From the NCBI GenBank assembly GCA_017627955.1, contig JAGAFU010000042.1, positions 1-41,637 on the forward strand: DNA of 41,637 nt. The letters run 5' to 3'. The stretch comes from Bacteroidales bacterium (lineage in GTDB: Bacteria; Bacteroidota; Bacteroidia; Bacteroidales; UBA932). A program made the position numbers and the translations under genes. This document shows, piece after piece, positions 1,364-26,816 of the stretch. A model generated the notes under the pieces. The model ran no database searches. It had not been told where the DNA came from and saw only the letters and a program-made list of their open reading frames with translations. Every line of letters starts with the position of its first letter. Within the stretch, counting starts at the first letter, position 1.

Positions 1364-3919
1364 ATGTTTAATTACCGCTCAAAGATAATCATCGCCGCCT
1401 TGCTGGCGGCCATATCGCTCCCCGCGCCCGCCCAACAGGCCTCGAGGGTATCATTCAATGAAGGTTGGACGTTCTGTAAGGATGGTGTCACCAAGCAGGT
1501 GGATCTGCCCCACGATTGGGGTGTGGACGGCCCGTTCAACATCCAATATCCCGGTGAGACCGGCAAACTTGAGTGGTGGGGAAAGGCTGAATATACCAAG
1601 ACCCTGGTGGTTGACGAGAGATCCTTCGCTTCGCTCAGGATGACAACCGACCCGTCATCCCCGGCAGCGATCGGGGATCTCTACCTTTTGGACATCGATG
1701 GAGCGATGTCTTGGGCGAAGGTCTTCTGCAACGGGAATCTCGTGACCGAATGGCCTTACGGATACGCCTCTTTCAGGGCAGACCTCACTCCTTATATAAA
1801 AGAAGGAGAGAACGAGATAAAAATAACGCTCAACAATCCCGAAGAGTCAAGCCGTTGGTATCCTGGTGGAGGAATATACCGCGACGTCTGGCTGACAGTG
1901 GCCCCATCCGTCGGAGTAGCCCACTGGGGAACCTACATGACCACAAAGGGCGACAAAGCCACGCTTGCGATATCCTTGAGGAACAGCGGACCTTCAACAA
2001 GCTCAGGGGCCGGAATCGCCGGCACTGTCCGGACGGAAATATTTGAATATGACGGGAATACGGTTATCGCATCCGCAGAAACAGCTGTCGAATCCATAAC
2101 CGACTCCACCGTCATCACCCAAGAATTCGATCTCGCCGGTGCCGCCCGCTGGAGCCCCGACCATCCCACTCTCTACAAAGCGATCACGACCGTCATCCCC
2201 ATGGAAGCCGGAGCGGCTGCCGGGCATCGGCCGTACTCAGCCGCAGCGAAGCGAGGATGGACGCGGCCGAGCCCGGACAGCCGTCCGGCAGACGAGGCAT
2301 ACATCACCGTTTTCGGGCTGAGGGATATCGAATACAAAGAAGACGGGATATTCATCGACGGAGTCAAGACATTCCTCAAGGGAGTCTGCCTCCACCACGA
2401 CGCCGGAGCCCTCGGAGCCGTCTGGAACACGACAGCCTGGGAGCGCCGCCTGAAGATGCTCAAGGAGATGGGCTGCAACGCCATCCGCACCTCCCACAAT
2501 CCACCGGCCCCTGAGCTTCTTGACCTCTGTGACAGGATGGGCTTCCTCGTCATGGACGAGCTGACGGACACCTGGACCGTCCCGAAGAAGCCCAACGGCT
2601 ACGCCCTCCTGTTCAACGACTGGGCGGAGAAAGACCTCAAGGCCCTTATCCACAGGGACCGCAACCACCCTTCTGTGATCCTCTGGAGCATAGGCAATGA
2701 GACCGGAGAGCAGGGCTACCCGAACCTCTATCATATTCCCGCCCGCTTGACGGAGATATGCCACCAGGAAGATCCCACGAGGCTCACCACCTTCGGTTCC
2801 GACAACCCCTGGGCCTCGGAGCAGGAATTCCGCAACACGATGGACATCTATGGCTTCAATTACAAGCCCCACCTTTACGCCAAGTTCCATGCGGCCAATC
2901 CCGGCAAGCTTTATCTCGGCAGCGAGACCGCCTCGACGATCAGCACAAGGGGCGTGTATTTCTTCCCCATAGAGGAAGATCCCAGAGGCAAGGAATTCTG
3001 CGAGAAGGACTTCCAGGTCAGTTCCTACGACCTCCACACAGTGCCGTGGGGACAGACACCGGAGCAGGAATGGAAAGATGAGGACGATAATCCTTCCTGC
3101 CTTGGAGAGTTCGTCTGGACCGGTTACGACTATCTCGGGGAACCAACTCCCTACAACAAGGACATAACTATCCTGACCAACTTCCATGATCCGGAGGCGA
3201 AGGCGAGGGCAGAGAAGGAAATTGCCGAAAAGGGCGCCGTCTCTACCCCTTCCAGAAGCTCGTATTTCGGGATCATCGACCTGGCCGGATTCCCGAAGGA
3301 CCGTTACTGGCTGTACCAGGCGAGATGGTCAGAAAAGACTGTGCTTCACGTGCTTCCGCATTGGAACTGGCCTGGCCGCGAGGGAGAGGTGACCCCTGTC
3401 CATGTCTACACCAACTGCGACAAGGTGGAGCTCTTCGTCAACGGAGTCTCCCAAGGAATACGTGAAAGGGCCGACAAACAGTACAGGCTGAGATGGGACA
3501 ATGTGGTTTACAGTCCCGGAAAGGTCAAGGCGGTCGGCTGGAAAGACGGGTCGAAGGTAATCGTACAGACGGTCAAGACCGCCGGAGAGACCCGCAAGAT
3601 AAAACTTGAGCAGGAAAAAGGCTTCGGGGAAGGCGATCTGTATTACATTGACGCCGTCTTGACCGACAAGAAAGGAGTGTTCGCTCCGACTGCCTGCGAT
3701 GAGTTGAAATTCAGCATCAAAGGCCCCGGAGAAATCCTGGCCGTGGACGCTGGCGACCCGACCTGCCTTACACCCTTCCATTCAGACTCAATTAAGGCAT
3801 TTAACGGACTCGCGTCAGTCATAATCAAGGTCAAGCCCGGCGCAAGAGGCAAAATCGTGGTCACTTGCACTTCCGACGGCCTGAAAAAAGGTAAAACAAA
3901 ATTTAATATTAATAAATAA
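1364..3919 (+). CDS. Glycoside hydrolase family 2 protein (beta-galactosidase-like), exported
   Basis: A GH2 retaining glycosidase of 851 residues, probably acting on beta-galactosides or related plant or host glycans in the periplasm or on the surface. The start at 1364 gives a signal peptide (IIIAALLAAISLPAPAQ); an in-frame start further upstream at 1259 would overlap the promoter and add an unlikely extension. The N-terminal jelly-roll domain has the typical WYPGGGIYRDVWL. The TIM barrel carries the acid/base in SIGNE (Glu446) and the nucleophile in GSETAS (Glu521). The C-terminus has a DUF4982-like Ig domain (HVYTNCDKVELFVNG). Three segments without counterpart in the usual family pattern coincide with palindromic DNA: residues about 85-106 (RSFASLRMT...), 210-216 (PSTSSG) and 281-313. 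They lie where loops are expected and leave catalytic motifs intact. The S9 peptidase gene follows after four bases. Exact substrate unknown. Confidence 0.88.
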   Translation: MFNYRSKIIIAALLAAISLPAPAQQASRVSFNEGWTFCKDGVTKQVDLPHDWGVDGPFNIQYPGETGKLEWWGKAEYTKTLVVDERSFASLRMTTDPSSPAAIGDLYLLDIDGAMSWAKVFCNGNLVTEWPYGYASFRADLTPYIKEGENEIKITLNNPEESSRWYPGGGIYRDVWLTVAPSVGVAHWGTYMTTKGDKATLAISLRNSGPSTSSGAGIAGTVRTEIFEYDGNTVIASAETAVESITDSTVITQEFDLAGAARWSPDHPTLYKAITTVIPMEAGAAAGHRPYSAAAKRGWTRPSPDSRPADEAYITVFGLRDIEYKEDGIFIDGVKTFLKGVCLHHDAGALGAVWNTTAWERRLKMLKEMGCNAIRTSHNPPAPELLDLCDRMGFLVMDELTDTWTVPKKPNGYALLFNDWAEKDLKALIHRDRNHPSVILWSIGNETGEQGYPNLYHIPARLTEICHQEDPTRLTTFGSDNPWASEQEFRNTMDIYGFNYKPHLYAKFHAANPGKLYLGSETASTISTRGVYFFPIEEDPRGKEFCEKDFQVSSYDLHTVPWGQTPEQEWKDEDDNPSCLGEFVWTGYDYLGEPTPYNKDITILTNFHDPEAKARAEKEIAEKGAVSTPSRSSYFGIIDLAGFPKDRYWLYQARWSEKTVLHVLPHWNWPGREGEVTPVHVYTNCDKVELFVNGVSQGIRERADKQYRLRWDNVVYSPGKVKAVGWKDGSKVIVQTVKTAGETRKIKLEQEKGFGEGDLYYIDAVLTDKKGVFAPTACDELKFSIKGPGEILAVDAGDPTCLTPFHSDSIKAFNGLASVIIKVKPGARGKIVVTCTSDGLKKGKTKFNINK
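1621..1641. repeat. In-frame palindromic element, CTGAG/CGAAG type (GH2 copy 1)
   Basis: The strand opposite the gene reads CCTGAGCGAAGCGAAGG flanked by AT on both sides, giving a stem ATCCT/AGGAT, a tandem G.A mismatch and the GCGAAGC mini-hairpin. It is translated as part of RSFASLRMT. The same 21-base unit occurs at 6470 outside any gene, and with one change at 10180. Confidence 0.85.
1657..1678. repeat. Second palindrome directly after GH2 copy 1
   Basis: ATCCCCG (1657-1663) and CGGGGAT (1672-1678) form a perfect 7-bp stem with an 8-base loop. It lies 15 bases after the first element, in the same protein loop (translated SSPAAIGD). Its sequence differs from the CTGAG/CGAAG type, so it is probably another repeat family. 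Confidence 0.6.
1991..2007. repeat. In-frame palindromic element (GH2 copy 2)
   Basis: CCTTCAACAAGCTCAGG, reading on the opposite strand CCTGAGCTTGTTGAAGG. It has the CTGAG and GAAG ends of the family with a longer loop. It is translated as PSTSSG; the S9 peptidase has PSTNSG at its own element. Confidence 0.65.
2220..2276. repeat. Longer in-frame hairpin with a GCGAAGC core (GH2 copy 3)
   Basis: CCGGGCATCGGCCG (2220-2233) pairs with CGGCCGAGCCCGG (2264-2276) apart from one bulged A. The 30-base loop contains GCAGCGAAGCGAGG, including the GCGAAGC hairpin. A further stem CCGGAC/GTCCGG lies at 2273-2288. The encoded 30-residue stretch interrupts the usual link between the second and third GH2 domains. 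Confidence 0.55.
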
Positions 3920-3923
3920 CGGT

Positions 3924-6461
3924 ATGAAACGAACTTTATTGATCGGAGCGACATTGCTGCTCAGCCTCGCCGCCCTCGGACAGGACCCTTCCACAAACTC
4001 CGGGTCCAGAAAAGTGACCAAAGCCAATTATGCCCTGGCAGAGAGGTTTTCCGCCAAAAGGGTGAACAGCATGGTTTTCTCCACCAGGGTAACGCCCCGT
4101 TGGTTCAAGGAAGGAGACCGGTTCTGGTACGAGTGGCAATCGCCGAAAGGGACGAACTACTACATAGTAGACCCTGTCAAAGGGACCAAGACCGAGGTTT
4201 TCGATCTTGAGAGACTTGCCATGGAACTAACTGAAATAGTGAAAGATCCGTATGATGCCCAGCATATTCCCATAACCAACCTAAAGCTGAAGGACGACAA
4301 AGTCTTCACCTTCGACATCCGCGGCACCCAGGACAAGCCCGCCAAGCCGGACACCTCCAAGGATAACAAGGGGAAGAGAGAAGGAGGACCAAGAGGAGCT
4401 GCCGCCCCGGGCAGACCCGAGAAGATGGTATTCCATTTTGAATATGATTTCGCCTCCAAGACACTCAAGGACGTGACTGAGGAGAAGGAAAAGGAAGACG
4501 AGAACAAGAAGTATCCCACGTGGGCATCCGTCTCCCCGGACGGCACTGTCGGCGTCTTCGCCAGGAACAATAACCTCTGGATCATGGATTCCACCAGTAT
4601 GAGAAAGGCCGCGAAGGATCCCAAAGACAGCACGATCGTGGAATTCCAGCTGACCAAGGATGGAATCAAGGATTTCGGATTCGGTTACAGCTTTTCCAGC
4701 GGTGATGACACGGACACGACCAGGCGGACAAACGCCGGAATAGTCTGGTCGCCTGATTCGAAGCATTTCGCAGCAAGCCGGTCTGATGACCGCGAGATCA
4801 AAGACTTATGGGTCATTAATTCAGTCTCTGGCAAGAGGCCGAGACTCGAGACCTACAAGTACCAGATGCCTGGGGAGCCAAGCCCGGTAGAATATCTGTA
4901 TGTGTTCACTTTCAATGGAATCCCAGCTCAAGCCGGGGATGACAACGTGGCGACCAGGAAGCAGATAAAAATCAGCGCTTTCAAGGACCAGGACTTCAGC
5001 ATCCTTCGTTCCCGTAGGCTGGCGAAAGACAGTTACGATGAATATTTCTCAAGCAAGTGGCTCGGAGACAATGACGGTTTCTATATGCTGCGCCGTAGCC
5101 GCGACCTCAAGAGGGCGGATCTCTGTCGGGTCAACGTGGCTTCCGACTCCGCGATAGTGATCATCCCCGAGCGTTCCAACACCTACATCGAGACCAAGAC
5201 CCCGTTCTTCATCAAGGACGGCAAGCAGCTGATCTGGTGGTCCGAGCGCAACGGATGGGCCAACCTCTACCTTTACGACAGCGACGGCACTCTGGTCAGG
5301 AAAATAACCGACGGGGCATTCCACGTCGACAACGTGCTAGGTGTCAATGAGAAAGAAGGTTATGTCCTACTCAGCGCATGCGGAGTGCAGAAGGATGAGA
5401 ACCCTTACCAGATGCACACCTACAGGGTCCCCCTAACCGGTGGCGCTCTCCAGAAGCTGGACATGGATGACATGGACGTGCTCTCCACCGCCAGCGATGA
5501 CGCCAAGTATTTCGTAGCCAACTATTCAAGAGTCGACTACACTCCGGGAGTCGCCCTCTACGGGGCTTCAGGCAAGAAGGTCCTCGACCTTGAGACCGCC
5601 GACCTGAGCCTCCTGTTCGAGGCCGGCTACAAGTTCCCCGAGCGCTTCAAGGTCAAAGCCGCTGACGGCGTGACCGACCTCTACGGAGCCATGTACAAGC
5701 CCTACGACTTCGACTCCACCAAGGTCTATCCGATCTGCGACTATGTCTATCCCGGACCGCAGGTCGAGGCCAACAATATCTCCTGGAGCAAGGGATTCAC
5801 GAGGACAGACCGTCTTGCCCAGCTTGGAATAATCGTGATCACCGTTGGCAACCGAGGCGGCCACCCTAACCGCTCGAAATGGTACCACAACTACGGCTAC
5901 GGCAACCTTCGTGACTATGGTCTTGAGGATCAGAAATACGCCATCCAGCAGATCGGCGCCCGCTGCCCCTTCGTCGATCTTGAGCGTGTCGGAATACACG
6001 GCCACTCCGGCGGCGGATTCATGAGCACCGCGGCGATCCTGAAATATCCCGACTTCTTCAAGGCGGCCGTCTCCTGCGCCGGCAACCACGACAACAGCAT
6101 CTACAACCGCTGGTGGAGCGAGCAGCACCACGGAATTCTGGAGAAGATCGACAAGGGCGACACCACCTTCGTCTACCACATCGACACCAACCAGGAGCTG
6201 GCCAAGAACCTCAAGGGCCACCTGATGCTGGTCCACGGAGATGTGGACAACAACGTCCACCCGGCCAACACGATCCGCGTCGTCAACGCCCTCATCAAGG
6301 CTAACAAGCGCTTCGACATGCTCCTCCTTCCGGGCCAGAGGCACGGTTTCGGCGACATGAATGAATATTTCTTCTGGAGGATGGCCGACTACTACTCTGA
6401 ATGGCTCATCGGAGACTCAGAGCGAGCCCGAGTGGACATAGTCCAGCTCAATAACGACTGA
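3924..6461 (+). CDS. S9 family prolyl oligopeptidase (dipeptidyl peptidase IV-like), exported
   Basis: A serine peptidase of 845 residues that probably removes dipeptides or short peptides from proline-containing substrates in the periplasm. A signal peptide (LLIGATLLLSLAALGQ) is followed by a beta-propeller domain (about residues 60-570; for example TWASVSPDGTVGVFARNN and VWSPDSKHFAASR) and an alpha/beta hydrolase domain. The catalytic triad is visible: Ser695 in GHSGGG, Asp775 in HGDVDNNV and His807 in GQRHGF. A palindromic repeat encoding DPSTNSGS sits immediately after the predicted signal cleavage site. An extra low-complexity stretch rich in Lys, Gly and Pro (around residue 145) lies in a propeller loop. 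It begins four bases after the GH2 gene, so the two are probably one transcript. It ends 29 bases before the convergent MGMT-like gene. Confidence 0.92.
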   Translation: MKRTLLIGATLLLSLAALGQDPSTNSGSRKVTKANYALAERFSAKRVNSMVFSTRVTPRWFKEGDRFWYEWQSPKGTNYYIVDPVKGTKTEVFDLERLAMELTEIVKDPYDAQHIPITNLKLKDDKVFTFDIRGTQDKPAKPDTSKDNKGKREGGPRGAAAPGRPEKMVFHFEYDFASKTLKDVTEEKEKEDENKKYPTWASVSPDGTVGVFARNNNLWIMDSTSMRKAAKDPKDSTIVEFQLTKDGIKDFGFGYSFSSGDDTDTTRRTNAGIVWSPDSKHFAASRSDDREIKDLWVINSVSGKRPRLETYKYQMPGEPSPVEYLYVFTFNGIPAQAGDDNVATRKQIKISAFKDQDFSILRSRRLAKDSYDEYFSSKWLGDNDGFYMLRRSRDLKRADLCRVNVASDSAIVIIPERSNTYIETKTPFFIKDGKQLIWWSERNGWANLYLYDSDGTLVRKITDGAFHVDNVLGVNEKEGYVLLSACGVQKDENPYQMHTYRVPLTGGALQKLDMDDMDVLSTASDDAKYFVANYSRVDYTPGVALYGASGKKVLDLETADLSLLFEAGYKFPERFKVKAADGVTDLYGAMYKPYDFDSTKVYPICDYVYPGPQVEANNISWSKGFTRTDRLAQLGIIVITVGNRGGHPNRSKWYHNYGYGNLRDYGLEDQKYAIQQIGARCPFVDLERVGIHGHSGGGFMSTAAILKYPDFFKAAVSCAGNHDNSIYNRWWSEQHHGILEKIDKGDTTFVYHIDTNQELAKNLKGHLMLVHGDVDNNVHPANTIRVVNALIKANKRFDMLLLPGQRHGFGDMNEYFFWRMADYYSEWLIGDSERARVDIVQLNND
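3983..4007. repeat. Palindromic element after the S9 signal peptide
   Basis: GGACCC (3983-3988) and GGGTCC (4002-4007) form a perfect 6-bp stem around TTCCACAAACTCC. The middle resembles the GH2 copy 2 unit (CTTCAACAAGCTC), so I take it as a diverged family member. It encodes DPSTNSGS just after the signal peptide. Confidence 0.55.
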
Positions 6462-6469
6462 CCTTTGTC

Positions 6470-6490
6470 ATCCTGAGCGAAGCGAAGGAT
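6470..6490. repeat. Palindromic element in the gap between convergent genes
   Basis: CCTGAGCGAAGCGAAGG flanked by AT/AT, identical in all 21 bases to the copy inside the GH2 gene but here non-coding. It fills most of the 29-base gap between the S9 peptidase stop and the MGMT-like stop, where a hairpin could also act on the 3' ends of both messages. No T-run follows on either strand. Confidence 0.8.
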
Positions 6491-7075
6491 CTAGCGGCCG
6501 TAGAGCTGGCGCTCGATAAGGCGGCGCTTAAGGACGCTACCATATTCATATTCACCGACTTCTATCGAATCAAGTAGATAGAGGTCGGTTCCTTTAAATA
6601 TGGTGGACTGTGCGACGGTACGGATGGCGAGGATCTTGTCGATCGCTTCTTTCGGGACGATCAGGTGGCAAGGGATTATGTAGGCGACAGGATTGCAGGC
6701 GACGGCATGGGCAACAGCCCGTACACCCTTGGGGTTGCCGCACAAGTCTGCCAGTTGACTATAACTCAACAATTTAATCCCTTCATCCGGCAAGATCGGA
6801 GTTCCGTCCTCATGATGAGTCAGAAGATAAAGTTGATGCCAGACATTCACCTGGAAAGGAGATCCGGACAACCTCATGTCCTCCCACTTTGTCGCGGCGG
6901 ACAGCTCAGCCAACTCTGAAGTACTTATTTTGCTGACAGTTATCTCGGAGACACTGTCCACCGGCTGCTTACCGACCTGCTGGGCCACCTTGGACAGGCC
7001 CCTGAAATCGGCGCTGACGGAAGCCACCTTCCCGTCAATGCGGGTCACCACCCATTTTTGATCCTTAGCTTTCAT
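6491..7075 (-). CDS. Methylated-DNA--protein cysteine methyltransferase-like protein
   Basis: A 194-residue protein with the active-site domain of O6-alkylguanine-DNA alkyltransferases. It has SPFQVNVWHQL near residue 72, LLSYSQLADL near 102, the arginine-finger helix GNPKGVRAVAHAVACNP at 113-129 and the acceptor cysteine in IPCH (Cys136). The family normally reads PCHRV followed by a Gly-rich G(G/L) segment; here it reads PCHLIVPKEAIDKI, and the C-terminal tail is unlike the standard one. An insertion (HHEDGTPILPDEGI) precedes the DNA-binding helix. The family transfers alkyl groups from O6-alkylguanine to itself irreversibly; alkyltransferase-like relatives only bind the lesion, but they lack the Cys that is present here. 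It is transcribed divergently from the sigma factor gene across a 94-base region. Confidence 0.75.
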   Translation of the reverse strand: MKAKDQKWVVTRIDGKVASVSADFRGLSKVAQQVGKQPVDSVSEITVSKISTSELAELSAATKWEDMRLSGSPFQVNVWHQLYLLTHHEDGTPILPDEGIKLLSYSQLADLCGNPKGVRAVAHAVACNPVAYIIPCHLIVPKEAIDKILAIRTVAQSTIFKGTDLYLLDSIEVGEYEYGSVLKRRLIERQLYGR

Positions 7076-7169
7076 GACGTAAAACCTTGACCCTTAAATA
7101 TAAGCAATTTATGAAAAAATCCGTTAACTTTATTAAGGGTTTTGCGGCTTATAGATAGAGACGCCGTTT

Positions 7170-8053: not shown

Positions 8054-8059
8054 AAATCA

Positions 8060-8521: not shown

Positions 8522-8526
8522 CGGAG

Positions 8527-9732: not shown

Positions 9733-11385
9733 TTAATTATCAAGGCAACGGAGGAAAAAGTCTTTTAGTTCGGAGGAAGAATTGGATATTCTGCCCTTAA
9801 GTCTCCAGACGCGGTTATAGATCACGCTTTTCTCTTTCTCCATAAGGGCGGAGATGGTGGTGCTGGAAAAACCGGCCGCCGTGAAAGCATAGAGCTGGAA
9901 ATCCTCTTCCTTCCACGAAGGGAAGTCCGAGCGGAGCTTTGTCATGACCCCTCCCATGCGCCTGTCCAGCATATCTTCCAGGTTCTTCCGAACCTTCTTG
10001 TCACTTCGAAGGCCTTCCACGATGGATTTAACTTCCTTAAGAATCCTGGGCTGAAGGTTTCCGGTGCCCTCGTAGATGTAGTACTGCTCGCAAAGCCGCT
10101 CCAAAGCCTCGAATCCCGGTCCATCCGTGGGGTGGGATTGGGATGGCCGATCAGGTCGGCCATGACCAGAAATACTGTCATCCTGAGCGGAGCGAAGGAT
10201 CTCCTCCGCCTTCCCCAGACGGCCCTTCAGATCCTCCGCGATCGACATGTACCTATCCCGCTCGGCAATCTCCTCAGCCAGAAGCCTTTCCTGCTTCGAA
10301 CGATAGAAAAAGTACACCCCGAGAAGCGCCCCGGCGGCCAAAAGAGCCGTCAGCGCCAACAACAATAGCCGGAGTCTCGCGGCCCGGAGTTTCTCCGCCT
10401 GGATGTCCGCCTGACCTTGAATATACTCCCGTTGGCTAGCCGAGACGGCCTCCTGAAGCGACGAGGCTTGAGACTTGTTGCCATATTCAGTGACCCTCTC
10501 AAGGGCATTGAGAGCTTTGACGGCATCCCCCGAGCGGGAAGCGATCTGATACTCCCGGAAGTCCGCATCGGCCGCATCCTCGTCACTCTCGACCGAAGCC
10601 TTGGCATCTGAAAGCCACCTGAGCGCCTCTTTCTGGTTTCCAGCAAGGGAATATGAATAGGCCAATATTCCTTTATCTTCAGGAGTCAGGGGATAATGGA
10701 GCTCATTCGCCGCCCGGCCGAGCATGTCGATCGCAAGCGACGGGTCCGGATCATCCTTACTGACCGCAAGGGCCGCGTAAGACTCAAGACATCTTGCCTC
10801 CAAAAGCGTGTCCCTGGACTCATGAGAATCATATAGGACGCTCTTGAATATATCCTCCGCGGCTTCAGCATTTCCCGCCGCGGCATGAGCCCTTCCAATC
10901 TCAAGAAGAGACCTCTGGCTCTCACCCTCCTCGCCAGCGGCTTTGAATGCTTCCGAAGCCCTGGCAAGATAGAGTATCTCATCGGCGGAATTACCTGACA
11001 CTCCGTTCGTTCTGGCCATATCGCGGCAGATGAGTCCTTCGCGGAGAGTGTCACCCGTTTTCTCGGCATATTCCAGAGCCCTGGTGTAAGAAACAATGGC
11101 GGCGGAATAACTCCGCTCGTTGAACTGCGCCCTGCCAAGGCAATACATCGCCCTGGTTTTCTGCCCATCGTCTCCCCTTCTGACAAACCAGTCGGCCACC
11201 TTGGCGACGTCCGCGGAACTGACGGTGTTGACATAGCCCATTTCATCCTCCATCTTGTCCAGCAGGGCTTCCATCTGGGCATCCAGCCCGGTCGAGCAAC
11301 CCGTCAACACAAGGAAGGACAAAAACAACAGCAACGCTACTAACGCCGTGTTTTGTAACCTATTAACCGCTAAGCATTTAAGCAT
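9733..11385 (-). CDS. Lipoprotein-type TPR regulator with transmembrane segment and C-terminal HTH
   Basis: A 550-residue protein that seems to join an outside sensor to a DNA-binding domain. The N-terminus ends in the lipobox LTGC (about residue 30). Five or more TPR-like helical pairs cover residues 60-310 (for example AMYCLGRAQFNERSYSAAIVSYTRALEYA, written here in parts: AMYCLGRAQFNERSY and SAAIVSYTRALEYA). A transmembrane helix (LLLLALTALLAAGALLGVYFF) is near 335-357, then a charged coiled coil. The C-terminal 80 residues (SWKEEDFQLYAFTAAGFSS, TISALMEKEKSVIYNRVWRLK) resemble a LuxR or sigma-region-4 helix-turn-helix. Two adjacent palindromes are translated at residues about 396-415. It follows the ThiL-like gene by 45 bases, with GGAAGG before the ATG. 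Confidence 0.78.
   Translation of the reverse strand: MLKCLAVNRLQNTALVALLLFLSFLVLTGCSTGLDAQMEALLDKMEDEMGYVNTVSSADVAKVADWFVRRGDDGQKTRAMYCLGRAQFNERSYSAAIVSYTRALEYAEKTGDTLREGLICRDMARTNGVSGNSADEILYLARASEAFKAAGEEGESQRSLLEIGRAHAAAGNAEAAEDIFKSVLYDSHESRDTLLEARCLESYAALAVSKDDPDPSLAIDMLGRAANELHYPLTPEDKGILAYSYSLAGNQKEALRWLSDAKASVESDEDAADADFREYQIASRSGDAVKALNALERVTEYGNKSQASSLQEAVSASQREYIQGQADIQAEKLRAARLRLLLLALTALLAAGALLGVYFFYRSKQERLLAEEIAERDRYMSIAEDLKGRLGKAEEILRSAQDDSISGHGRPDRPSQSHPTDGPGFEALERLCEQYYIYEGTGNLQPRILKEVKSIVEGLRSDKKVRKNLEDMLDRRMGGVMTKLRSDFPSWKEEDFQLYAFTAAGFSSTTISALMEKEKSVIYNRVWRLKGRISNSSSELKDFFLRCLDN
10143..10163. repeat. Perfect 8-bp palindrome inside the TPR regulator gene
   Basis: ATGGCCGA (10143-10150), loop TCAGG, TCGGCCAT (10156-10163). 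It is not of the CTGAG/CGAAG type, but lies 16 bases from such an element and inside the same poorly conserved, Ser/Pro-rich protein linker (SGHGRPDRPSQSHP). Confidence 0.65.
10180..10200. repeat. In-frame palindromic element, CTGAG/CGAAG type (TPR regulator)
   Basis: CCTGAGCGGAGCGAAGG flanked by AT/AT, differing from the 6470 copy by one base in the loop. It is translated from the opposite strand as EILRSAQDD. The U32 protein contains EILRSAQND from its own copy at 21975. Confidence 0.8.
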
Positions 11386-14631: not shown

Positions 14632-15754
14632 GGTCGCTGATGATGTCGTCAGAGGTGAAGAAGTGATCCTCGGGGATGCGGATCCTTCGACTCCGCTCAG
14701 GAGCCGGTTGGTGAGCGGAGTCGAACCACAAGGCTCCCTCTGAAAGGAGCCGGTCAACCGGAGCGTCACCGGCGAGGGAACGTAGCTCATCTTCAGGAAG
14801 GCCAGCATCGGTCCTCAAAGGTAACATGATCCGCTCGACTCGGATGTCTTCCGGAGTGAGGACTTCTTCTTCCCGGGAATATTCCCCAAGGCTCTCGCTA
14901 TTCCAAGACCTGACGGAACTCGCTGACAATGAGTGGACTCCTGGGCCGAGGCCCACATAGGGGACCCGCCTCCAATAGGCGCTGTTGTGGACAGCTTCAT
15001 AACCGGGAAGGGAAAAATTGGAGACTTCGTAGTGATGGTAGCCAGCCTCACCAAGTCTGGCGCAAAGCAGGTCGTATTGCTCCCTACATCGCTCGTCAGT
15101 AGCCTCGGTAAAGCCGCCTTTGGCAATCAGTTTCTCAATGGCGCTACCCTCTTCTATGGACAATTGGTATGCGGAAATATGCTCGGGCTTAAGATCCATG
15201 GCCCTTTCAATGGTGTCGGCCCAAACTTTTTCGGAGAGTTGCGGCAGGCCGAATATCAAGTCTATACTGATATTCATGACTCCGCAACGGCGCAGGATCT
15301 TGAAAGCCTCAACGGCCTCAGCTGAATCATGCCGGCGGTTCATCCATCGTAGAATCCCGTCATCGAAGGATTGGACACCCATGCTGATCCGGTTCACCCC
15401 CAAGGCCAAAAGCCCTTTGACATATTCCTCACCTTTCTGGACTATGTCTTCGGGATTAACCTCTATCGTGAACTCTGACCAGGGGGAGATGACCGGCCCT
15501 TCGGCTCCGCTCAGGGACCGGACAATCTTGGAGAGCACATCAAGCGGAAGCACTGATGGGGTGCCTCCGCCAATATATAAGGTATTTACTTCGAGCGTTT
15601 GGGTTATCTCTTCGCGACGGGCGGCGATTTCTTTGCGCACCGCATCGGCGTAGGACTCGAAGCAACGATTCTTTGATTCGCTCTGAATGACATTGGAGTA
15701 GAAGCCGCAGTAGGTACAGCGGCTCTCACAAAAGGGAACGTGGAGATAGATCAC
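14624..15754 (-). CDS. hemW: Radical SAM protein HemW (heme chaperone, coproporphyrinogen oxidase-like)
   Basis: A 376-residue cytoplasmic radical SAM protein. The iron-sulfur motif is C-E-S-R-C-T-Y-C (Cys9, Cys13, Cys16), the SAM-binding GGGTPS is near residue 68, and the HemW hallmark HNSAYW is near 262. The family binds heme and delivers it to target proteins; it is not the HemN oxidase, which has an extra N-terminal segment. The start codon is GTG at 15754. Two palindromic repeats are translated: one gives SLSGAEGPVIS near residue 83, the other FDSAHQPAPERSRRIRI near the C-terminus. Both fall outside the conserved motifs. The gene starts three bases after the coiled-coil protein stop, so the two are probably co-transcribed. 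Confidence 0.92.
   Translation of the reverse strand: MIYLHVPFCESRCTYCGFYSNVIQSESKNRCFESYADAVRKEIAARREEITQTLEVNTLYIGGGTPSVLPLDVLSKIVRSLSGAEGPVISPWSEFTIEVNPEDIVQKGEEYVKGLLALGVNRISMGVQSFDDGILRWMNRRHDSAEAVEAFKILRRCGVMNISIDLIFGLPQLSEKVWADTIERAMDLKPEHISAYQLSIEEGSAIEKLIAKGGFTEATDERCREQYDLLCARLGEAGYHHYEVSNFSLPGYEAVHNSAYWRRVPYVGLGPGVHSLSASSVRSWNSESLGEYSREEEVLTPEDIRVERIMLPLRTDAGLPEDELRSLAGDAPVDRLLSEGALWFDSAHQPAPERSRRIRIPEDHFFTSDDIISDLI
14686..14725. repeat. 14-bp inverted repeat made of two opposed family cores (HemW C-terminus)
   Basis: TTCGACTCCGCTCA (14686-14699) and TGAGCGGAGTCGAA (14712-14725) are perfect complements with a 12-base spacer. Each arm is a CTGAG/CGAAG-type core, so this is two copies head to head. 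A further short stem, GGCTCC/GGAGCC, follows at 14732-14751. Confidence 0.85.
15497..15516. repeat. In-frame palindromic element (HemW N-terminal half)
   Basis: The coding strand reads CCCTGAGCGGAGCCGAAGGG, a CCCT/AGGG stem with G.A pairs and a G-C closed loop. It is translated as SLSGAEGPV between the GGGTPS motif and the conserved EVNPE. Confidence 0.8.
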
Positions 15755-15757
15755 GCT

Positions 15758-16760: not shown

Positions 16761-17225
16761 ATGAAATACATTGTCAGGGCGGTCAAATATTTTATATGGT
16801 TCATCTTGATTCTGACCATCGTCATGCTCATCATGGCAGTCCTTGGACTTGTGGAACCGGATCCGGACCTAATGTTCCGGGAGGGATGGAAATCAATATG
16901 GCAGATAGCGATTCTTTTCGGAATAGTCGCGGCTTTATACCCTATGTTTGGGTTCCGCAAGCAGGAGGCTATTGTCCCCGGAGAGTACCCGCAAGTTAGG
17001 GACGAGGTCGTCAGTTACATGGAATCAAGAGGTTACGAGCTGGAGACAGAAGAGAACCAGATAATGACCTTCAGACTTCACTCGAAAGTCAGCCGGATCG
17101 CGAAAATGCTGGAGGACCGGGTGACTTTCATCAAGGTGCCGGAAGGCTTCGAGGTAGAGGGCCTCAGAAAAGACATAATCCGCTTGATCAGCGGACTCGA
17201 ATACAAGCTCAACAACGAGCGATAA
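16761..17225 (+). CDS. Small membrane protein with two transmembrane segments
   Basis: A 154-residue protein of unknown function. Two hydrophobic helices (YFIWFILILTIVMLIMAVLG near residues 10-29 and IWQIAILFGIVAALYPMFG near 46-64) are followed by a soluble domain of about 90 residues. That domain begins VPGEYPQVRDEVVSYMESRGYELE and has alternating strands and helices. An ATG 168 bases upstream is in frame but lies before the promoter and inside the divergent gene, so 16761 is the start. The DUF2007 gene follows after 28 bases on the same strand, and the two are likely co-transcribed. Confidence 0.8.
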   Translation: MKYIVRAVKYFIWFILILTIVMLIMAVLGLVEPDPDLMFREGWKSIWQIAILFGIVAALYPMFGFRKQEAIVPGEYPQVRDEVVSYMESRGYELETEENQIMTFRLHSKVSRIAKMLEDRVTFIKVPEGFEVEGLRKDIIRLISGLEYKLNNER

Positions 17226-20619: not shown

Positions 20620-20627
20620 TTTAAGAG

Positions 20628-20633: not shown

Positions 20634-20637
20634 TTCG

Positions 20638-20670: not shown

Positions 20671-20686
20671 TTTTTTATTACATTTG
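20660..20686 (+). promoter_or_regulatory. Promoter of the exported TPR protein gene
   Basis: TACATTTG at 20679-20686 is a perfect -7 box. The nearest -33 candidate is ATTG at 20660-20663, with a short spacer of 15 bases. The ATG at 20734 lies 47 bases downstream. Confidence 0.5.
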
Positions 20687-20733
20687 TCTCCGTTCGCCGT
20701 GTATAAAAGTTGAACTTAAATACATTAAAGAAG

Positions 20734-21672: not shown

Positions 21673-23732
21673 TGACTGATCTCGAACTTCTCGCTCCTGC
21701 GAGAAACGCTGACATCGGCATCGCGGCCATCGACTGCGGTGCCGATGCGGTATATATCGCGGGGCCAGCGTTCGGGGCACGGCAGGATGCCGGCAACTCG
21801 ATGGAGGACATCCGCCGGCTTTGCGAATATGCCCATAAGTTCGGAGTAAGGATATTCCTGACTCTCAACACAATACTTTACGATTCGGAAATTCCTGACG
21901 CTAAGCGCATTCTCCATGAAGCCGCCGAGGCTGGGGTGGATGCTGTGATCGCACAGGACCTGGCCGTGTTCGAGATTCTTCGCTCCGCTCAGAATGACAT
22001 GGAGGCGCACGCCTCCACCCAGTGCGCCATCCGCACACCGGAGCAAGCTCGCTTTTACGAGAGTCTCGGGGCAAGCCGGATTGTCCTTGAGAGGCAGCTT
22101 TCCCTTGATCAAATCAGGGCTATACGGGAAGCGGTCAGTTGCGAGATCGAGTTCTTCGTCCATGGAGCGCTCTGCGTGTGCTATAGCGGACAGTGCTACA
22201 TGTCGGAGGCGGTGGCCGGGAGAAGCGCCAACCGGGGAGCCTGTGTCCAGGCCTGCAGGTCGCTTTACAATCTGGAAGACAGTTCAGGAAAGGTCCTCGT
22301 CAAAGACAAGGCGCTGCTTTCACTCAAAGATTTCAACCTGATCGAACGGCTTTCAGACCTCGCCGAGGCCGGGGTATGCTCCTTTAAGATTGAGGGACGC
22401 CTTAAGAATATCTCCTATGTGAGGAATACTGTCAGGGCATATTCACTTGCCTTGGACGAGTTGATTGCAAGGCATCCGGACAAATACCGCAGGGCCTCGT
22501 TCGGCAAGGTCGAGGGGGGCTTCACGCCTGACTTGAGGAAGACATTCAACCGTGGTTACACGGAGTTGTTCCTCGATGGTAAGCGCGGCAAATGGTCCTC
22601 AATGGACGCTCCGAAATCCGCCGGCGAGCTGATCGGCACAGTTACACACATTAGCGCCGGAGTAACTGTTCGACTGGACAATCCGGCGACGATGCTGCGC
22701 AACGGGGACGGATTCACTTTCACGCCTAAAGGCGGAGGCGAGATCAGAGGCTTCAGGGGAGATGTCTGTGAAGGTAACCGGATTATTTGCAAGGAGGTGC
22801 CGGGACTCTACGTCGGGGCGAGGCTCCGGAGAAATCTCAGCGTCGCCTTCGAGAAAGAGATCGAAGCCAATCTCCCGGTCCGCCGCGTCCTTGTCTCTGT
22901 GACATTGCGTATCAGCAGTGTCACGGCGGCGGCAAGCGCATCCTCTGGCTCGCTGCGCTTCGCGCCCTATCCGGGAAAATGCTCGCCAGAGGATACCTTG
23001 CCGCCTGCCGGCACTGAAGCAGCCGCATCTTATCGGTTGAAGGTGAAGGCGGAAAGTGAGGATGGGAAGATCGTGGAGTTCGAGATGGATGCTGGGGACC
23101 AGGAAGCGAATAATGTCGAAAGGATGGAGGCGATGTTCAAGACTCAGATTGAGAAGATCTCGGGGATATATTCATTCACTCTATCTGATTTAGACTCAAG
23201 TGGTTCTGGTGGGAAACTGCCCTTCATGCCGACTTCGGCGATCAATGGCATCAGAAGAGAGATCGCTCAGAGGTTGGATCAGTCGTCACGCACGAATAGA
23301 CCCTTCGCTTCGCTCAGGGTGACAGACTCTGTCATTCTGAGGGCCTGCCCTGAGCCTGCCGAAGGGCCGAAGGCCGAAGAATCTACCCCCGTACCAGAAA
23401 CAATTGATTATAAATCCAATATATCCAACAGTGTCGCCAGTGAGACACTCCGTCGTCTTGGTGCCAAGGACATTGAGGAAGCTTTCGAACTGACCCACCG
23501 GGATGGAGCCGAACTGATGCGGACAAAGTACTGCGTCAGGCATGAGCTGGGGCTGTGCCCGAAAGATTCTTCGGCCTCCGGCCTCAGAATGACAAATGGT
23601 ACCTCAGGCAACAAAATGACAGGAGATGGCAACAGGGTAACGCCCGGGCCGCTGTTTCTCATCAATAACGGAAAGCGCTACCGCCTCGGCTTCGACTGCG
23701 TCCGCTGCGAAATGACAGTTTCCCTGGCATAG
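21672..23732 (+). CDS. U32 peptidase-family protein (possible RNA hydroxylation factor), rich in inserted repeats
   Basis: A 686-residue member of the U32 family. The N-terminal TIM-barrel-like part starts DLELLAPARNADIGIAAIDCGADAVYI. The family signature region is EFFVHGALCVCYSGQCYMSE near residue 159-178, with SANRGACVQACR after it. Relatives (RlhA, TrhP) are required for hydroxylation of rRNA or tRNA and use conserved Cys residues; others were described as collagenases. I cannot tell which applies. Relatives are usually nearer 610-620 residues, and the excess here matches five palindromic DNA elements translated in frame: EILRSAQND near 101, a 33-residue segment near 415-447, RPFASLRVT near 542, VILRACPEPAEGPKAEES near 554 and DSSASGLRMT near 632. 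The signature motifs are untouched. It is coupled to the TPR gene by a one-base overlap. Confidence 0.85.
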   Translation: MTDLELLAPARNADIGIAAIDCGADAVYIAGPAFGARQDAGNSMEDIRRLCEYAHKFGVRIFLTLNTILYDSEIPDAKRILHEAAEAGVDAVIAQDLAVFEILRSAQNDMEAHASTQCAIRTPEQARFYESLGASRIVLERQLSLDQIRAIREAVSCEIEFFVHGALCVCYSGQCYMSEAVAGRSANRGACVQACRSLYNLEDSSGKVLVKDKALLSLKDFNLIERLSDLAEAGVCSFKIEGRLKNISYVRNTVRAYSLALDELIARHPDKYRRASFGKVEGGFTPDLRKTFNRGYTELFLDGKRGKWSSMDAPKSAGELIGTVTHISAGVTVRLDNPATMLRNGDGFTFTPKGGGEIRGFRGDVCEGNRIICKEVPGLYVGARLRRNLSVAFEKEIEANLPVRRVLVSVTLRISSVTAAASASSGSLRFAPYPGKCSPEDTLPPAGTEAAASYRLKVKAESEDGKIVEFEMDAGDQEANNVERMEAMFKTQIEKISGIYSFTLSDLDSSGSGGKLPFMPTSAINGIRREIAQRLDQSSRTNRPFASLRVTDSVILRACPEPAEGPKAEESTPVPETIDYKSNISNSVASETLRRLGAKDIEEAFELTHRDGAELMRTKYCVRHELGLCPKDSSASGLRMTNGTSGNKMTGDGNRVTPGPLFLINNGKRYRLGFDCVRCEMTVSLA
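21975..21995. repeat. In-frame palindromic element (U32 copy 1)
   Basis: The strand opposite the gene reads TTCTGAGCGGAGCGAAGAA flanked by A and T. Stem ATTCT/AGAAT, tandem G.A, then a GC-closed loop. It is translated EILRSAQND, as in the TPR regulator but with the stem base pairs changed together from ATCCT/AGGAT to ATTCT/AGAAT. Confidence 0.85.
22917..23015. repeat. Long in-frame inverted repeat, about 99 bp (U32 copy 2)
   Basis: GGCGGCAAG then ATCCTCTGG on the left (within 22917-22948) pair with CCAGAGGAT and CTTGCCGCC on the right (22986-23008); the outer bases AGTG and CACT also pair. The loop contains TGCGCTTCGCG, the complement of the GCGAAGC hairpin. The encoded segment is Ala/Ser/Pro-rich and breaks the expected domain. 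Confidence 0.75.
23300..23320. repeat. In-frame palindromic element (U32 copy 3)
   Basis: The strand opposite the gene reads CCCTGAGCGAAGCGAAGGG flanked by A and T. Stem ACCCT/AGGGT, tandem G.A, GCGAAGC core. Translated RPFASLRVT, close to RSFASLRMT in the GH2 protein. Confidence 0.85.
23334..23382. repeat. Nested palindromic elements (U32 copy 4)
   Basis: The outer unit has ATTCTGAGG at the left end and AGGCCGAAGAAT at the right end. In its middle lies a complete second unit, CCCTGAGCCTGCCGAAGGG (23348-23366). The intact form of the outer unit is present 184 bases downstream at 23566-23590. Confidence 0.75.
23566..23590. repeat. In-frame palindromic element (U32 copy 5)
   Basis: The strand opposite the gene reads CTGAGGCCGGAGGCCGAAG inside flanks ATT and AAT. 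Stem ATTCT/AGAAT, tandem G.A, then GGCC/GGCC closing a GGA loop. Translated DSSASGLRMT. Confidence 0.85.
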
Positions 23733-23814
23733 CGCTCAAAGTCCCAATTTCAAAAGAAATCCGTTTTCGAATAGATCTCGCCAAGCGCGCCAGAAATCAG
23801 GCTTAAATCGTGTC

Positions 23815-24105: not shown

Positions 24106-24108
24106 GGT

Positions 24109-24462
24109 TTATATCTCCTTATTATTCTTGTCTTTGTAATAGTCTCTCATTAGTTTTGAGTTCTTTCGTATCATCGCTATTGGCGTCTTTTCAGTTTTTT
24201 TCTGGAAACCACTCAAAAGGACGACAACTTTCAAGGCATCAAAAAAGCAAAACATACGGTATATGTTTCCTCCGAATATGACCCTGATCTCATACAAGCC
24301 TTCCGTACCCTCAATATGCTTTAGGTGGTTGGAGGGAATAACCTCAACATCCTCGATCACTCTCAATATTTGTAAGATCTTTCTCTGCACTTTCGAGGGC
24401 TGGGTATTAAGGAAGTTTTCAAAATAGTCTTTATAGACTATAATGGTCCTGTATCTTCCCAT
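24109..24462 (-). CDS. RelE/HigB-type toxin (phage Gp49-like)
   Basis: A 117-residue protein matching the phage-derived Gp49-like/HigB branch of the RelE superfamily. Typical segments are FENFLNTQPSKVQRKILQIL near residue 15, HLKHIEGTEGLYEIRVIFGG near 46 and YRMFCFFDALKVVVLLSGFQKKTEKTP near 68 (in parts: YRMFCFFDALKVVVLL, SGFQKKTEKTP). These toxins cleave mRNA on the ribosome; the basic C-terminal patch fits that role. It is first in a two-gene unit with the XRE antitoxin. Its promoter's -7 box lies only four bases before the ATG, so the message may be leaderless. Confidence 0.9.
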   Translation of the reverse strand: MGRYRTIIVYKDYFENFLNTQPSKVQRKILQILRVIEDVEVIPSNHLKHIEGTEGLYEIRVIFGGNIYRMFCFFDALKVVVLLSGFQKKTEKTPIAMIRKNSKLMRDYYKDKNNKEI

Positions 24463-24466
24463 TGCA

Positions 24467-24498
24467 CAAATGTAATTTAAAAGTTCCGTATTCGCAAG
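24467..24498 (-). promoter_or_regulatory. Promoter of the toxin-antitoxin pair
   Basis: On the minus strand CTTG (24498-24495), 20 bases, then TACATTTG (24474-24467). The -7 box is perfect. Only four bases separate it from the toxin ATG, so transcription should start at or just inside the start codon. Confidence 0.65.
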
Positions 24499-24569
24499 AT
24501 CACATCATCATATTGTGATTAACAAACGGTTCAAATTAAAACATACGATCCAGCAAAAACTTTTGCCAA

Positions 24570-24595
24570 GAGGCTGGCCAGTAAAGGCCAGCCTC
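24570..24595 (-). terminator. Terminator-like hairpin after the lipoprotein gene
   Basis: GAGGCTGGCC and GGCCAGCCTC form a perfect 10-bp GC-rich stem with a 6-base loop, 18 bases past the stop. On the minus strand it is followed by TTGGCAAAAGTTTTTGC, a T-run a little further away than ideal. Confidence 0.7.
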
Positions 24596-24613
24596 AATGG
24601 AAACGGCTGACTA

Positions 24614-25789
24614 TCAATTGAAGACAAAGGTAATGGAGACATCCCCATAGCGGTTGGCGATCCCATTGTTCTTCTCGAAATAAGAAGAAGATAGTTTGCC
24701 ACGCCAGACTATGTCGTCATTGCGATGGTAAGGCAACTCAACAGAGAACCCATAGGCCTTGGACTTGATCTTGACTTCCCCGTTAGCCTTCCAAGTGGTG
24801 GACTTGCCTCCGTCATCCTCATGGATGAGGAATACGCACTCGGAGAGTTGGTTGGACCATTCTGGCACAAGAACCGTGTTGTACCTCAACGACGTACCTA
24901 CCTGCTTGCGCTTTACTTTGATCATCAGGTCTGTGATCTCGGGAGTGTACTTCGTCAAGTCGGACGCCACCGTAGCCGTAAAGGCCTTAAGAGAGCCACA
25001 TTTTACAAAGAATTCCGCACCGCCAGAATACCATGGGTCGTATTGGATATGGGCCTTGAATTCTTTGAGCTTCAAGGTCTTAAAGTCAGTGGCCGCACGT
25101 GTCCCGATGGATTCAGGATGGAGTCTATCCAACATCTGCGGCGTCATCGCCAAAGCATCCTCGTTCCATCCAATGACCCAGACCGGATGCTCCCTTGCAT
25201 AAGCCTCATCAACCACAATCTCTTTCACAATCCATTGGCCTCCAGGAAGTTCCTCACGTTGATAGGCAACATTGGACTCAAGCGCGATTTCGGGGCAGAA
25301 AGTGATCACAGGCATGGATATTTTGTCCCAATCCTCAGAATATGGCCAGTAAATCTGAAGTCCGGAAGAGAAGAGATCATCACTGAATCCGGAGGACCTG
25401 GTGGCAGGATATCCCGAGAAATGAGCGGATATCAGATCACGGAACGGCTCAGGATACTCTGTCATAGACCGGGTGCCGAGAGCTTTGTCACCCACTCCTT
25501 GCCCCGGAGAAGAGAACATGTCGGCGAAAGTATACTCCTCGTCATAGCCATTGGCGCAGGAGGCGTTGACACCGTCCCAGACCTCACGGACCTGGTCGAG
25601 GGTAAAGGGAATACCAGAAAGAGCCTTGGCGACAGAAGCCGGAGTGATCTCCGACTCAACAGAAGGAACCTCTTGAGAAATAAGAGGTTGGGAAGTCTCT
25701 TCACAAGCCTGGAAAGACAGGATGGCTGCGGACAGAAGCGCCAGCGGCAATGGCAGAGGCGACTTTTTCTTTGAAATGAAATTTTTCAT
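24614..25789 (-). CDS. Putative surface lipoprotein of unknown function
   Basis: A 391-residue protein. A Lys-rich start and a hydrophobic stretch (LPLALLSAAILSFQAC) end in a likely lipidation Cys at about residue 29. It is followed by Glu-Glu, which resembles the acidic export signal of Bacteroidetes surface lipoproteins. Residues 40-130 contain a helical region (ITPASVAKALSGIPFTLDQV), the middle has EELPGGQWIVKEIVVDEAYA, and the C-terminal 150 residues are beta-rich (LVPEWSNQLSECVFLIHEDDGG) and end in ITFVFN. I recognise no named family. It stands alone between the HigBA pair and the prmC operon with hairpins on both sides. A long open frame on the other strand exists but lacks any protein-like features. 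Confidence 0.72.
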   Translation of the reverse strand: MKNFISKKKSPLPLPLALLSAAILSFQACEETSQPLISQEVPSVESEITPASVAKALSGIPFTLDQVREVWDGVNASCANGYDEEYTFADMFSSPGQGVGDKALGTRSMTEYPEPFRDLISAHFSGYPATRSSGFSDDLFSSGLQIYWPYSEDWDKISMPVITFCPEIALESNVAYQREELPGGQWIVKEIVVDEAYAREHPVWVIGWNEDALAMTPQMLDRLHPESIGTRAATDFKTLKLKEFKAHIQYDPWYSGGAEFFVKCGSLKAFTATVASDLTKYTPEITDLMIKVKRKQVGTSLRYNTVLVPEWSNQLSECVFLIHEDDGGKSTTWKANGEVKIKSKAYGFSVELPYHRNDDIVWRGKLSSSYFEKNNGIANRYGDVSITFVFN

Positions 25790-25817
25790 TTTGAATAGGT
25801 TTTAAAAGTTAATAATA

Positions 25818-25832
25818 CACTTCCGCGAAGTG
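25818..25832. other. Small hairpin in the leader of the lipoprotein gene
   Basis: CACTTC-CGC-GAAGTG, a perfect 6-bp stem with a 3-base loop, about 30 bases before the lipoprotein ATG. No T-run follows on the minus strand; it may be a leader structure. Its function is unknown. Confidence 0.35.
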
Positions 25833-25842
25833 ACAAAAAAAG

Positions 25843-25869
25843 ATCCGTAGAACAAACTGTTCAACGGAT
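25843..25869 (-). terminator. Terminator of the PBP1A-ddl-prmC operon
   Basis: On the minus strand ATCCGT, then GAAC, a 5-base loop, GTTC and ACGGAT form a 10-bp stem with one A.A mismatch. CTTTTTTTG follows, the arrangement of a Rho-independent terminator. It lies about 39 bases after the prmC stop. Confidence 0.75.
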
Positions 25870-25907
25870 AAAATCAAAAAAAGGCATTTCAAGCCACTGG
25901 AAGGCCG

Positions 25908-26816
25908 TTAGGAGAAGAAAACAAAGCGATCTTTCGCGGCAAAATCTTTAATAATACGCGCCTTCTCAAAGCCGGAATCCAGAAAAAGATCATGAATCCG
26001 CGGACCCAACAACTCGTTTATCTCAACTATTCCCATTCCACCTGGAGCCATAAGGCTTCCAGCCCACCTGGCCACGGCGCGATAGAACAGCAGAGGATCC
26101 TCATCCGGTACAAAAAGAGCGATAGATGGCTCATAGTCCAACACATTGGTGCGCATGTCCTTCTTTTGGGATTCCATTATATAAGGAGGGTTGGACAGGA
26201 TGAGGTCGAATGTCTCGCAGGGGAAATGAGGCGGATCCTGAAGAATGTCGGCTTGATGGAAGACCGGCCTTCGACTCCGCTCAGGGACCGGCGCTTCGGC
26301 TTCGGACTGGCGAATATCTTGCCCGGAGGCTACCGCAAGGGCTTTTTCAGAGATGTCAACGGCGTAAACCTGGGCACCTGGAATCTCAAGGGCAATTGTC
26401 CAGGCGATGCAACCTGACCCGGTGCAAAGATCCAGGACCCGTAAAGGGGTGCTATTCCCAAGCGCCTTCCTTTCTGACAATATTCCTGAGGCCAACCTCA
26501 ATGCCTCGTCGCAAAGAATCTCGGTTTCCGGGCGGGGAATTAGCACATCAGGTGTGACTTTGAACCGGCGCCCGAAAAACTCCGCGTAACCCAGAACATA
26601 TTGCAACGGCTCCCCCGTTTCCAGCCTTGCCAAATCATGCGAAAGAATATTCACAGATTCTTCATTGAGGCTGTAATCGGGGTCTGTCGCATAGACATAT
26701 CTCCCTGTCCCAAGACGGGACTCCGCCAATGTGAGCATAATGTCCCTCGCCTCCGAAGGAGGATAGAGGGAACCGAGTCGAGATATTCCCTCCTTAAGGA
26801 AATCCCTCAGGAGCAT
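25908..26816 (-). CDS. prmC: Peptide chain release factor N5-glutamine methyltransferase
   Basis: PrmC methylates the Gln of the GGQ motif in release factors RF1 and RF2 using SAM. The 302-residue product has the N-terminal helical domain (residues 1-80), a SAM-binding motif (VLDLCTGSGCIAWTIAL near residue 120) and the catalytic NPPY (LILSNPPYIM near 210). A palindromic repeat is translated as EAPVPERSRRPVF near residue 178, in the loop between two Rossmann strands; the motifs on both sides are intact. It starts where ddl stops (TGATG overlap) and is the last gene of the PBP1A-ddl-prmC unit, followed by a terminator. Confidence 0.92.
   Translation of the reverse strand: MLLRDFLKEGISRLGSLYPPSEARDIMLTLAESRLGTGRYVYATDPDYSLNEESVNILSHDLARLETGEPLQYVLGYAEFFGRRFKVTPDVLIPRPETEILCDEALRLASGILSERKALGNSTPLRVLDLCTGSGCIAWTIALEIPGAQVYAVDISEKALAVASGQDIRQSEAEAPVPERSRRPVFHQADILQDPPHFPCETFDLILSNPPYIMESQKKDMRTNVLDYEPSIALFVPDEDPLLFYRAVARWAGSLMAPGGMGIVEINELLGPRIHDLFLDSGFEKARIIKDFAAKDRFVFFS
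26264..26291. repeat. In-frame palindromic element (PrmC)
   Basis: The coding strand reads CCTGAGCGGAGTCGAAGG with CCGG near each end (26264-26267 and 26288-26291). It is translated PVPERSRRPV; the C-terminal part of HemW has PAPERSRRI from the same unit in the same frame. Confidence 0.85.

Follow-up and report, generated by a model that had tools for sequence, protein, structure and literature searches.

Tagged palindromic units within and between the genes of a Bacteroidales genome, probable small mobile hairpins

The window analyzed here is a stretch of 41,637 nucleotides from a Bacteroidales bacterium (contig JAGAFU010000042.1 of assembly GCA_017627955.1; GTDB lineage ending in Bacteroidales, UBA932). 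It includes genes for a GH2 protein, an S9 peptidase, a tetratricopeptide repeat (TPR) protein, HemW, a U32 protein and PrmC, and short palindromic units built on the core CTGAG-N3..12-CGAAG, which we searched on both strands, lie within several of these genes and between genes. A first-pass annotation had described them as one family of palindromes inserted in frame into at least six unrelated genes, and had likened them to Rickettsia palindromic elements (RPEs). Our analysis supports this interpretation, with corrections. In comparisons the window is labeled W, L numbers denote loci or stretches, G numbers denote genomes, and the own genome is the one that holds the window.

The earlier observation of the core was confirmed. 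The window contains 11 copies, compared to 1.57 expected by chance, and none of 100 shuffles of the window reached this number (the largest gave 6). Absence of the core from the rest of the genome, a result that the first-pass annotation had named as counting against it, was not observed: the own genome (2.58 Mb) holds 82 copies of the strict form CTGAGCGNAGCGAAG, compared to 0 for a reversed-pattern control. Ten of the 11 core positions listed previously are exact; the remaining one, 14712, is related to the core but its stem is GGT/ACC (GGTGAGCGGAGTCGAACC), and an exact core at 17147-17167 was absent from the list. All but the one placed at 6470 had been said to be intragenic, and nine of ten exact cores do lie in called genes, with the exception at 6473-6487. 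They occupy five host genes, not six, as the S9 gene holds only the diverged form at 3983. Units add short stretches to unrelated proteins: PERSRR is common to HemW and PrmC, LRSAQ(D/N)D to the TPR protein and U32, and FASLR(M/V)T to GH2 and U32, all as noted previously. The palindromes themselves are real, but they do not form a single family; they are a mixture of two families, A and B, and further repeats. Likewise, the four forms described as diverged (1991, 2220, 3983 and 22917) all lie at or beside places with an insertion in comparison with related genomes, but 2220 and 22917 look like further repeats, not decayed A units.

Copies of family A, read in register, span 27 bp with the form TGTC-AT(Y)CT-GA-G(loop)C-GA-AG(R)AT-CT and consist of a TGTC tag, a 5-bp stem, a tandem G-A/G-A mismatch, a short G-C stem, a tiny loop and a CT tail. 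TGTCA stands at the right place in 44 of 67 core matches in the sampled DNA. The A stem has a covarying pair. In a count made without fixing the stem letters (57 own units and 67 units of other genomes), the first pair was AT and the second TA, each in 56 of the 57 own A units. The third pair was TA in 31, CG in 24 and GC in 1 (56/57 paired), and it was TA, CG, GC or AT in 66 of the 67 units of other genomes. A scan for tagged hairpins, defined as GTCAT, a perfect 5-bp stem and CT with the inner letters free, gave 50 matches in the own genome, compared to 1.25 on average, and never more than 5, in 20 triplet-shuffled controls. GA faces GA in 46 of these 50 hairpins, in 14 of 15 from near relatives and in 85 of 97 from other genomes, the latter at loci chosen for the core. 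When the tail was left free, 44 tagged units ended in CT (38), CC (5) or CG (1). The loop is GNA in 82 of 92 CTGAGCNNNGCGAAG of the own genome (GAA 67, GGA 9, GTA 4, GCA 2), and single changes from a GAA loop affect the middle letter 15 times, the first twice and the third once (binomial 1.9e-5, for copies that may not be independent). DNA mini-hairpins in which a GNA loop closes two or more G-C pairs have been described as extraordinarily stable, with GCGAAGC melting at 78 C (PMC4686876). An Rfam search of the window returned nothing at gathering scores.

Units of family B measure about 24 bp and read GGTCCCTGAGCGGAGTCGAAGGGC or, where the stem differs, GGTTGGTGAGCGGAGTCGAACCA. They are mostly flanked by CCGG and sometimes occur in tandem with a period of about 24 bp. 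Both families are placed in the window in Table 1.

Relatives differ in unit presence at most comparable sites, so the other result named beforehand as counting against the interpretation, orthologues of distant genera with the same segments at the same places, was not observed for most copies. We defined an insertion locus as a place where a window protein has at least four extra residues relative to a relative (n = 20; GH2 was compared with one relative). Six of the 20 loci carry a unit, compared to 1.03 under random placement (maximum 5 in 2000). At the intergenic site 6466, L037 and L039 differ from L042 by 33 bp and W reads like L037; the first-pass annotation had proposed a check for target-site duplications, and none is visible here. 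In the U32 gene, the pair at 23298-23384 is missing in L043, and L039 has other sequence at the second-hairpin site. The second hairpin is present in L038 without the 24 bp of W 23343-23366, and L037 has only its last letters. At the U32 C-terminus, W and L039 have the unit, L038 has part of it, L043 has a degenerate form and L037 has none. The PrmC site is variable as well: W has one B unit, L177 and L178 have at least two in tandem, L188 has B-like units beside an N run, L179 has a fully paired TGTC hairpin, and L180-L187 have no unit. At the U32 site 21973, the form in L043 is diverged, and the insert in L041 is longer and includes a dimer. The HemW loops hold differing inserts in the six species compared.

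The siting of units in genes was examined in the window and 20 further stretches (441,637 bases in total, 368 genes, coding share 0.92). Among 44 A units, 22 lie in genes, 20 between genes and 2 at an edge, a marked depletion from genes given the coding share (p 2.7e-13). The other 23 cores, which are mostly B and include some likely chance matches, lie in genes in 22 cases and between genes in one, which matches chance and shows no depletion (p 1.0), and a wider B pattern is intragenic in 39 of 43 cases. Five of six reading frames had been described as open; this is correct for the 15-bp core and for the 24-bp B units, but the full 27-bp A unit is open in four. The length of B units, about 24 bp, and their five open frames out of six may explain why they last especially well inside genes. 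As in RPEs, units lie in frame in unrelated coding genes, and this siting, together with the tag, supports the likeness to RPEs that had been proposed. Its limits include that several families are mixed and that about half of the sampled A units are outside genes.

Table 1. Repeat units and related features in the window (upper rows) and in other stretches (last two rows). Family A sites have a TGTC tag; family B sites mostly have a CCGG flank.
Feature	Family	Position	Strand	Comparison or remark
27-bp unit in GH2 gene, peptide FASLRMT	A	1619..1645	-	13-aa insertion vs L045, only relative compared
Inverted partner, fully paired CGTC hairpin ATCCCCGG..TCGGGGAT		1653..1680	+	
Diverged form in GH2 (PSTSSG)		1985..1999	+	5-aa insertion vs L045
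Repeat TCAGCCGCAGCGAAGCGAGGATGGACGCGG in GH2	C	2240..2293	+	18-aa insertion vs L045
Insertion adjoining diverged form 3983, S9 peptidase gene		3993..4019	+	9-aa insertion vs L042
Intergenic unit	A	6466..6492	+	In W, L037, L039, L043; missing in L042
Inverted partner hairpin GTCATGGCCGAC..GGCCAT, TPR gene		10143..10166	-	
Unit in TPR gene, peptide LRSAQDD	A	10176..10202	+	L039 too; half unit in L037, L038
Unit in HemW C-terminal region (PERSRR)	B	14684..14707	-	
Unit with GGT/ACC stem (B'), HemW C-terminal region	B	14703..14728	+	
Unit in HemW (RSLSGAEGP)	B	15493..15521	-	
Unit in U32 (EILRSAQND)	A	21973..21999	-	Common to L037, L038, L039
Another repeat in U32, SGSLRFAPYPGKCSP		22920..22994	+	DNA motif recurs upstream of A unit, own L061 13513
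Unit in U32 (FASLRVT)	A	23298..23324	-	Missing in L043
Unit in U32, split by nested B-like unit	A	23330..23384	+	
Nested 24-bp B-like stretch in A hairpin	B	23343..23366	+	Not in L038; ends uncertain by few bases
Unit with long loop (GGCC GGA GGCC), U32 C-terminus	A	23564..23594	-	
Unit in PrmC (PERSRR)	B	26264..26291	-	B also in L177, L178; none in L180-L187
HemW-loop palindromic element		L037 12090-12344; L038 11994-12236; L039 11991-12233; L043 12216-12440		
Tandem arrays starting TGTCATTC		L058 2917; L065 10806; L004 768; L173 1953-1995		

Besides A and B, at least two further repeats strike coding loops. Family C (TCAGCCGCAGC..GCGAGGATGGACGCGGCC) was found, in addition to its window copy, near 19400 in L038 and L039 and at own L066 15228 and L067 9125; in the U32 gene of L038 and L039 and at the two own loci it has a B-like unit in its middle. 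In addition, L037, L038, L039 and L043 share one HemW loop that contains a palindromic element; it is roughly 130 bp long, its ends lie near CCGGAAGGGG, and its orientation in L037 and L043 is opposite to that in L038 and L039.

The relatives are uncultured Bacteroidales or Bacteroidia, one of them from goat omasum, and their query-protein identity ranges over 53-81 percent. RUG names (rumen uncultured genomes) are found among several of them. The genomes of twelve syntenic relatives hold 52, 59, 77, 13, 34, 7 and 8 strict copies, and 0 in the other five. The strict core was found in 18 of 148 genomes of the window's order and in 15 of 119 of its family, the own genome included in both cases, and in none of eight other same-genus genomes sampled. 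Dimers with tags outside occur as several copies in G021, G161, G169, G024 and G145. In G065 (L140-L149) the hairpin lies within a longer conserved repeat, CCAGTAACCCCACTCC..TGTCATTCTGAG..CAAACATTTTAACCGGACAACA. A literature search for the exact string CTGAGCGAAGCGAAG gave a single match, in an unrelated paper. None of the literature matches listed describes these units in Bacteroidales, although such a description may exist.

We consider it probable, at about 0.6, that the units are small non-autonomous mobile hairpins of the kind of RPEs and repetitive extragenic palindromic (REP) sequences. A trans-acting enzyme would probably recognize the unit in its folded, single-stranded DNA form and move it, leaving no regular target duplication. 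Insertions that break genes would be purged by selection, and those that keep the frame at tolerant places, which we expect to be loops of the folded proteins, would survive and then decay. The opposite view, that the units are ancestral protein loops or chance low-complexity matches, is scarcely credible. The U32 segment at 21973 is indeed common to W, L037, L038 and L039, but identical DNA in many unrelated genes, in several frames, on both strands and also between genes, with stem covariation, already refutes this view for most copies, and orthologues vary at most comparable sites. A further alternative is dispersal without a dedicated enzyme, the units being copied and amplified through replication slippage and template switching provoked by their hairpins. 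Direct 5' half units (at least 9 of 12 letters, within 45 bases) lie upstream of 19 of 60 own units and downstream of 4, compared to a mean of 1.3 and a maximum of 5 in 200 shuffles. In 14 of the 60 the upstream half unit has a measurable period of 17-22, with flanking letters included in several, and B units are found in tandem. Slippage fits such local arrays, but not near-identical 27-bp units in unrelated genes over many of 60 contigs, and the complete unit at 6466, compared to none in L042, is unexplained by it. We therefore regard it as a rather unlikely explanation for the dispersal of the units. Half-unit matches end at letter 8 to 20 (at 13-18 in 8 of the 14). 3' half units near own units number 8 downstream and 2 upstream, and inverted partners within 80 bases (n = 60) number 16 upstream and 3 downstream. 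Tandem arrays of 17-21-bp units starting TGTCATTC were observed immediately before a complete hairpin.

The identity of a possible mobilizing enzyme was considered along two further lines. A Y1 transposase of the own genome, either IS200-like or a REP-associated tyrosine transposase (RAYT), could move the units in trans with TGTC as a guide 5' of the hairpin foot; the tag does occupy the position of the guide tetranucleotide as described in PMC6006769. Y1_Tnp was matched six times in the own genome, and four of these matches exceed the cut-off. In a set of 12 near genomes, every one of the six with at least eight units has 2-3 Y1 matches over or near the cut-off, and of the five unit-free genomes three have no Y1 match and the other two one weak match each. 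We nevertheless find this explanation unlikely. We examined 52 Y1 loci, comprising 6 own loci, 30 of 71 matches elsewhere and all 16 in near relatives. TGTC units are near only 3 of the first 36 (L033, L034 and L070) and 4 of the 16 in near relatives, and never on both sides. The Y1 genes of L032, L034 and L035 have flanking repeats of their own, unlike the units. G269 has 7 units and G013 has 3, both without a Y1 match; the sole Y1 match of G145, with 18 units, has an internal stop; and the own L031 Y1 has a 38-percent-identical relative in G241, a genome without the strict core. The first-pass annotation had suggested a search for a REP-associated Y1 gene; such Y1/RAYT genes exist, but with units on both sides at 0 of 52 loci a neighbor-encoded Y1 or RAYT is not supported as the mobilizer. 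Counting both families, 4 of the 36 loci have a unit at a distance of about 1.5 kb or less, with B in L034 and L035. The RAYT-like genes of L034 and L035 have their own flanking palindromes, GCCATGTGTGCCAAG..CTTGGCACACATGGC and GGTAGAGGTCC..GGCACCTCTACC. A second line, which we judge very improbable, is that the units are remnants of, or cargo in, miniature inverted-repeat transposable elements (MITEs) moved by a DDE transposase. G024 has a TGTC dimer inside a 121-bp element (five copies) with 17-bp terminal repeats GAGGCTGTATCAAAAGC, and G145 has one inside a similar element with GAGGCTGTCTCAAA-like ends. By eye, however, the 45-60 bases around own units show no such terminal repeats, nor were DDE-type terminal inverted repeats or target duplications seen at own units, and the five G024 copies have no target duplication around them. 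PF13751, which we take to be the IS1182-type transposase family, is without a match in the own genome, and it was the sole transposase family searched besides Y1. It was rejected as a candidate, with 1 match in four genomes (G024) and without the MITE ends. MITE-like elements that wrap TGTC dimers and have GAGGCTGT terminal repeats were observed at L150-L154 (G024) and L130-L139 (G145), and a search for the G024 MITE in plasmids gave no match.

Several observations weigh against small non-autonomous mobile hairpins as the explanation. Most sites are too diverged to give exact insertion ends, and none of the four orthologues compared is empty at the site of the U32 unit 21973. L043 is degenerate at the U32 C-terminus, so the empty L037 may represent a loss. 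Genes were called with a simple codon model instead of a standard gene finder, and the sampled stretches were mostly picked for holding the core, though not by coding status. AAA loops are common in G169 (among the matches listed), G081 and G013. A folding program finds the DNA hairpin ordinary, with 82 and 147 of 200 shuffles folding as well for two A units; we note that the folding parameters may miss the GNA and tandem G-A bonuses. Finally, no mobilizing gene was found among Y1 at the 52 loci and PF13751, the families searched.

A more specific proposal, which we advance tentatively and hold to be possible but not likely, is that in this clade an undescribed enzyme acting in trans on single-stranded DNA moves TGTC/CGTC hairpins. 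TGTC would serve as the guide, and the GNA loop and G-A pairs as a shape code. The half-unit arrays, 8 of 14 of which end close to the apex of the hairpin, would be footprints of this enzyme, left by a nick a few bases before the tag and then aborted copying, and in-frame units would be remodeling the proteins of the clade.

Among known systems, REPIN/RAYT elements resemble the units in being short hairpins that form dimers and reach tens of copies, and RAYT-like genes occur in the own genome. They differ in their GTAG tag, compared to TGTC or CCGG here, and in a RAYT gene flanked by the repeat, compared to three own Y1 genes that carry other repeats. A closer match is provided by the CGTC-tagged REPs of Di Nocera, De Gregorio and Rocco (2013, PMC3733652), which are reported in Bacteroidetes among five phyla. 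They share with the units a CGTC/TGTC tag outside the hairpin (TGTC in many repeats), AT as the first two stem letters, a short unpaired tail, dimers and occurrence within genes. As described there, CGTC repeats lack a dedicated, flanking transposase gene, in agreement with the absence of a flanking Y1 gene here, where the comparison covers Y1 at 52 loci and PF13751 only; the same paper leaves the mover of CGTC-type repeats open. The differences are that the described stem is 8-9 bp with a 4-5 nt loop, compared to 5 bp, a tandem G-A and a short G-C stem in A units and that the tail is mostly CCA, compared to CT (PMC3733652). CGTC dimers mostly have tags outside (HH); here the picture is mixed, with inverted partners mostly on the tag side in the own genome and dimers with tags outside in several copies of other genomes. 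The units are further distinguished by half-unit arrays and by a second, CCGG-flanked family that shares the core. Because their stem and tail are unlike the published description, the units are best filed as a new variant related to the CGTC-tagged REPs, not as one of the four families, a separation that is based on descriptions. The mobility of CGTC repeats could be tested in this clade, where strict counts range from 0 to 82, relatives are syntenic and the differences can be read. With respect to RPEs, PMC3733652 assigns RPE-4 and RPE-6 of R. conorii to the CGTC-tagged repeats. The units here appear to work like intragenic RPEs, a supported likeness drawn from published descriptions, and they differ in their host, a Bacteroidales bacterium, and in being much shorter (24 to 27 bp, compared to about 150 bp for RPEs in PMC10969869). 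They could provide a non-Rickettsia counterpart for studies of the frequency with which new stretches of protein arise from parasitic DNA.

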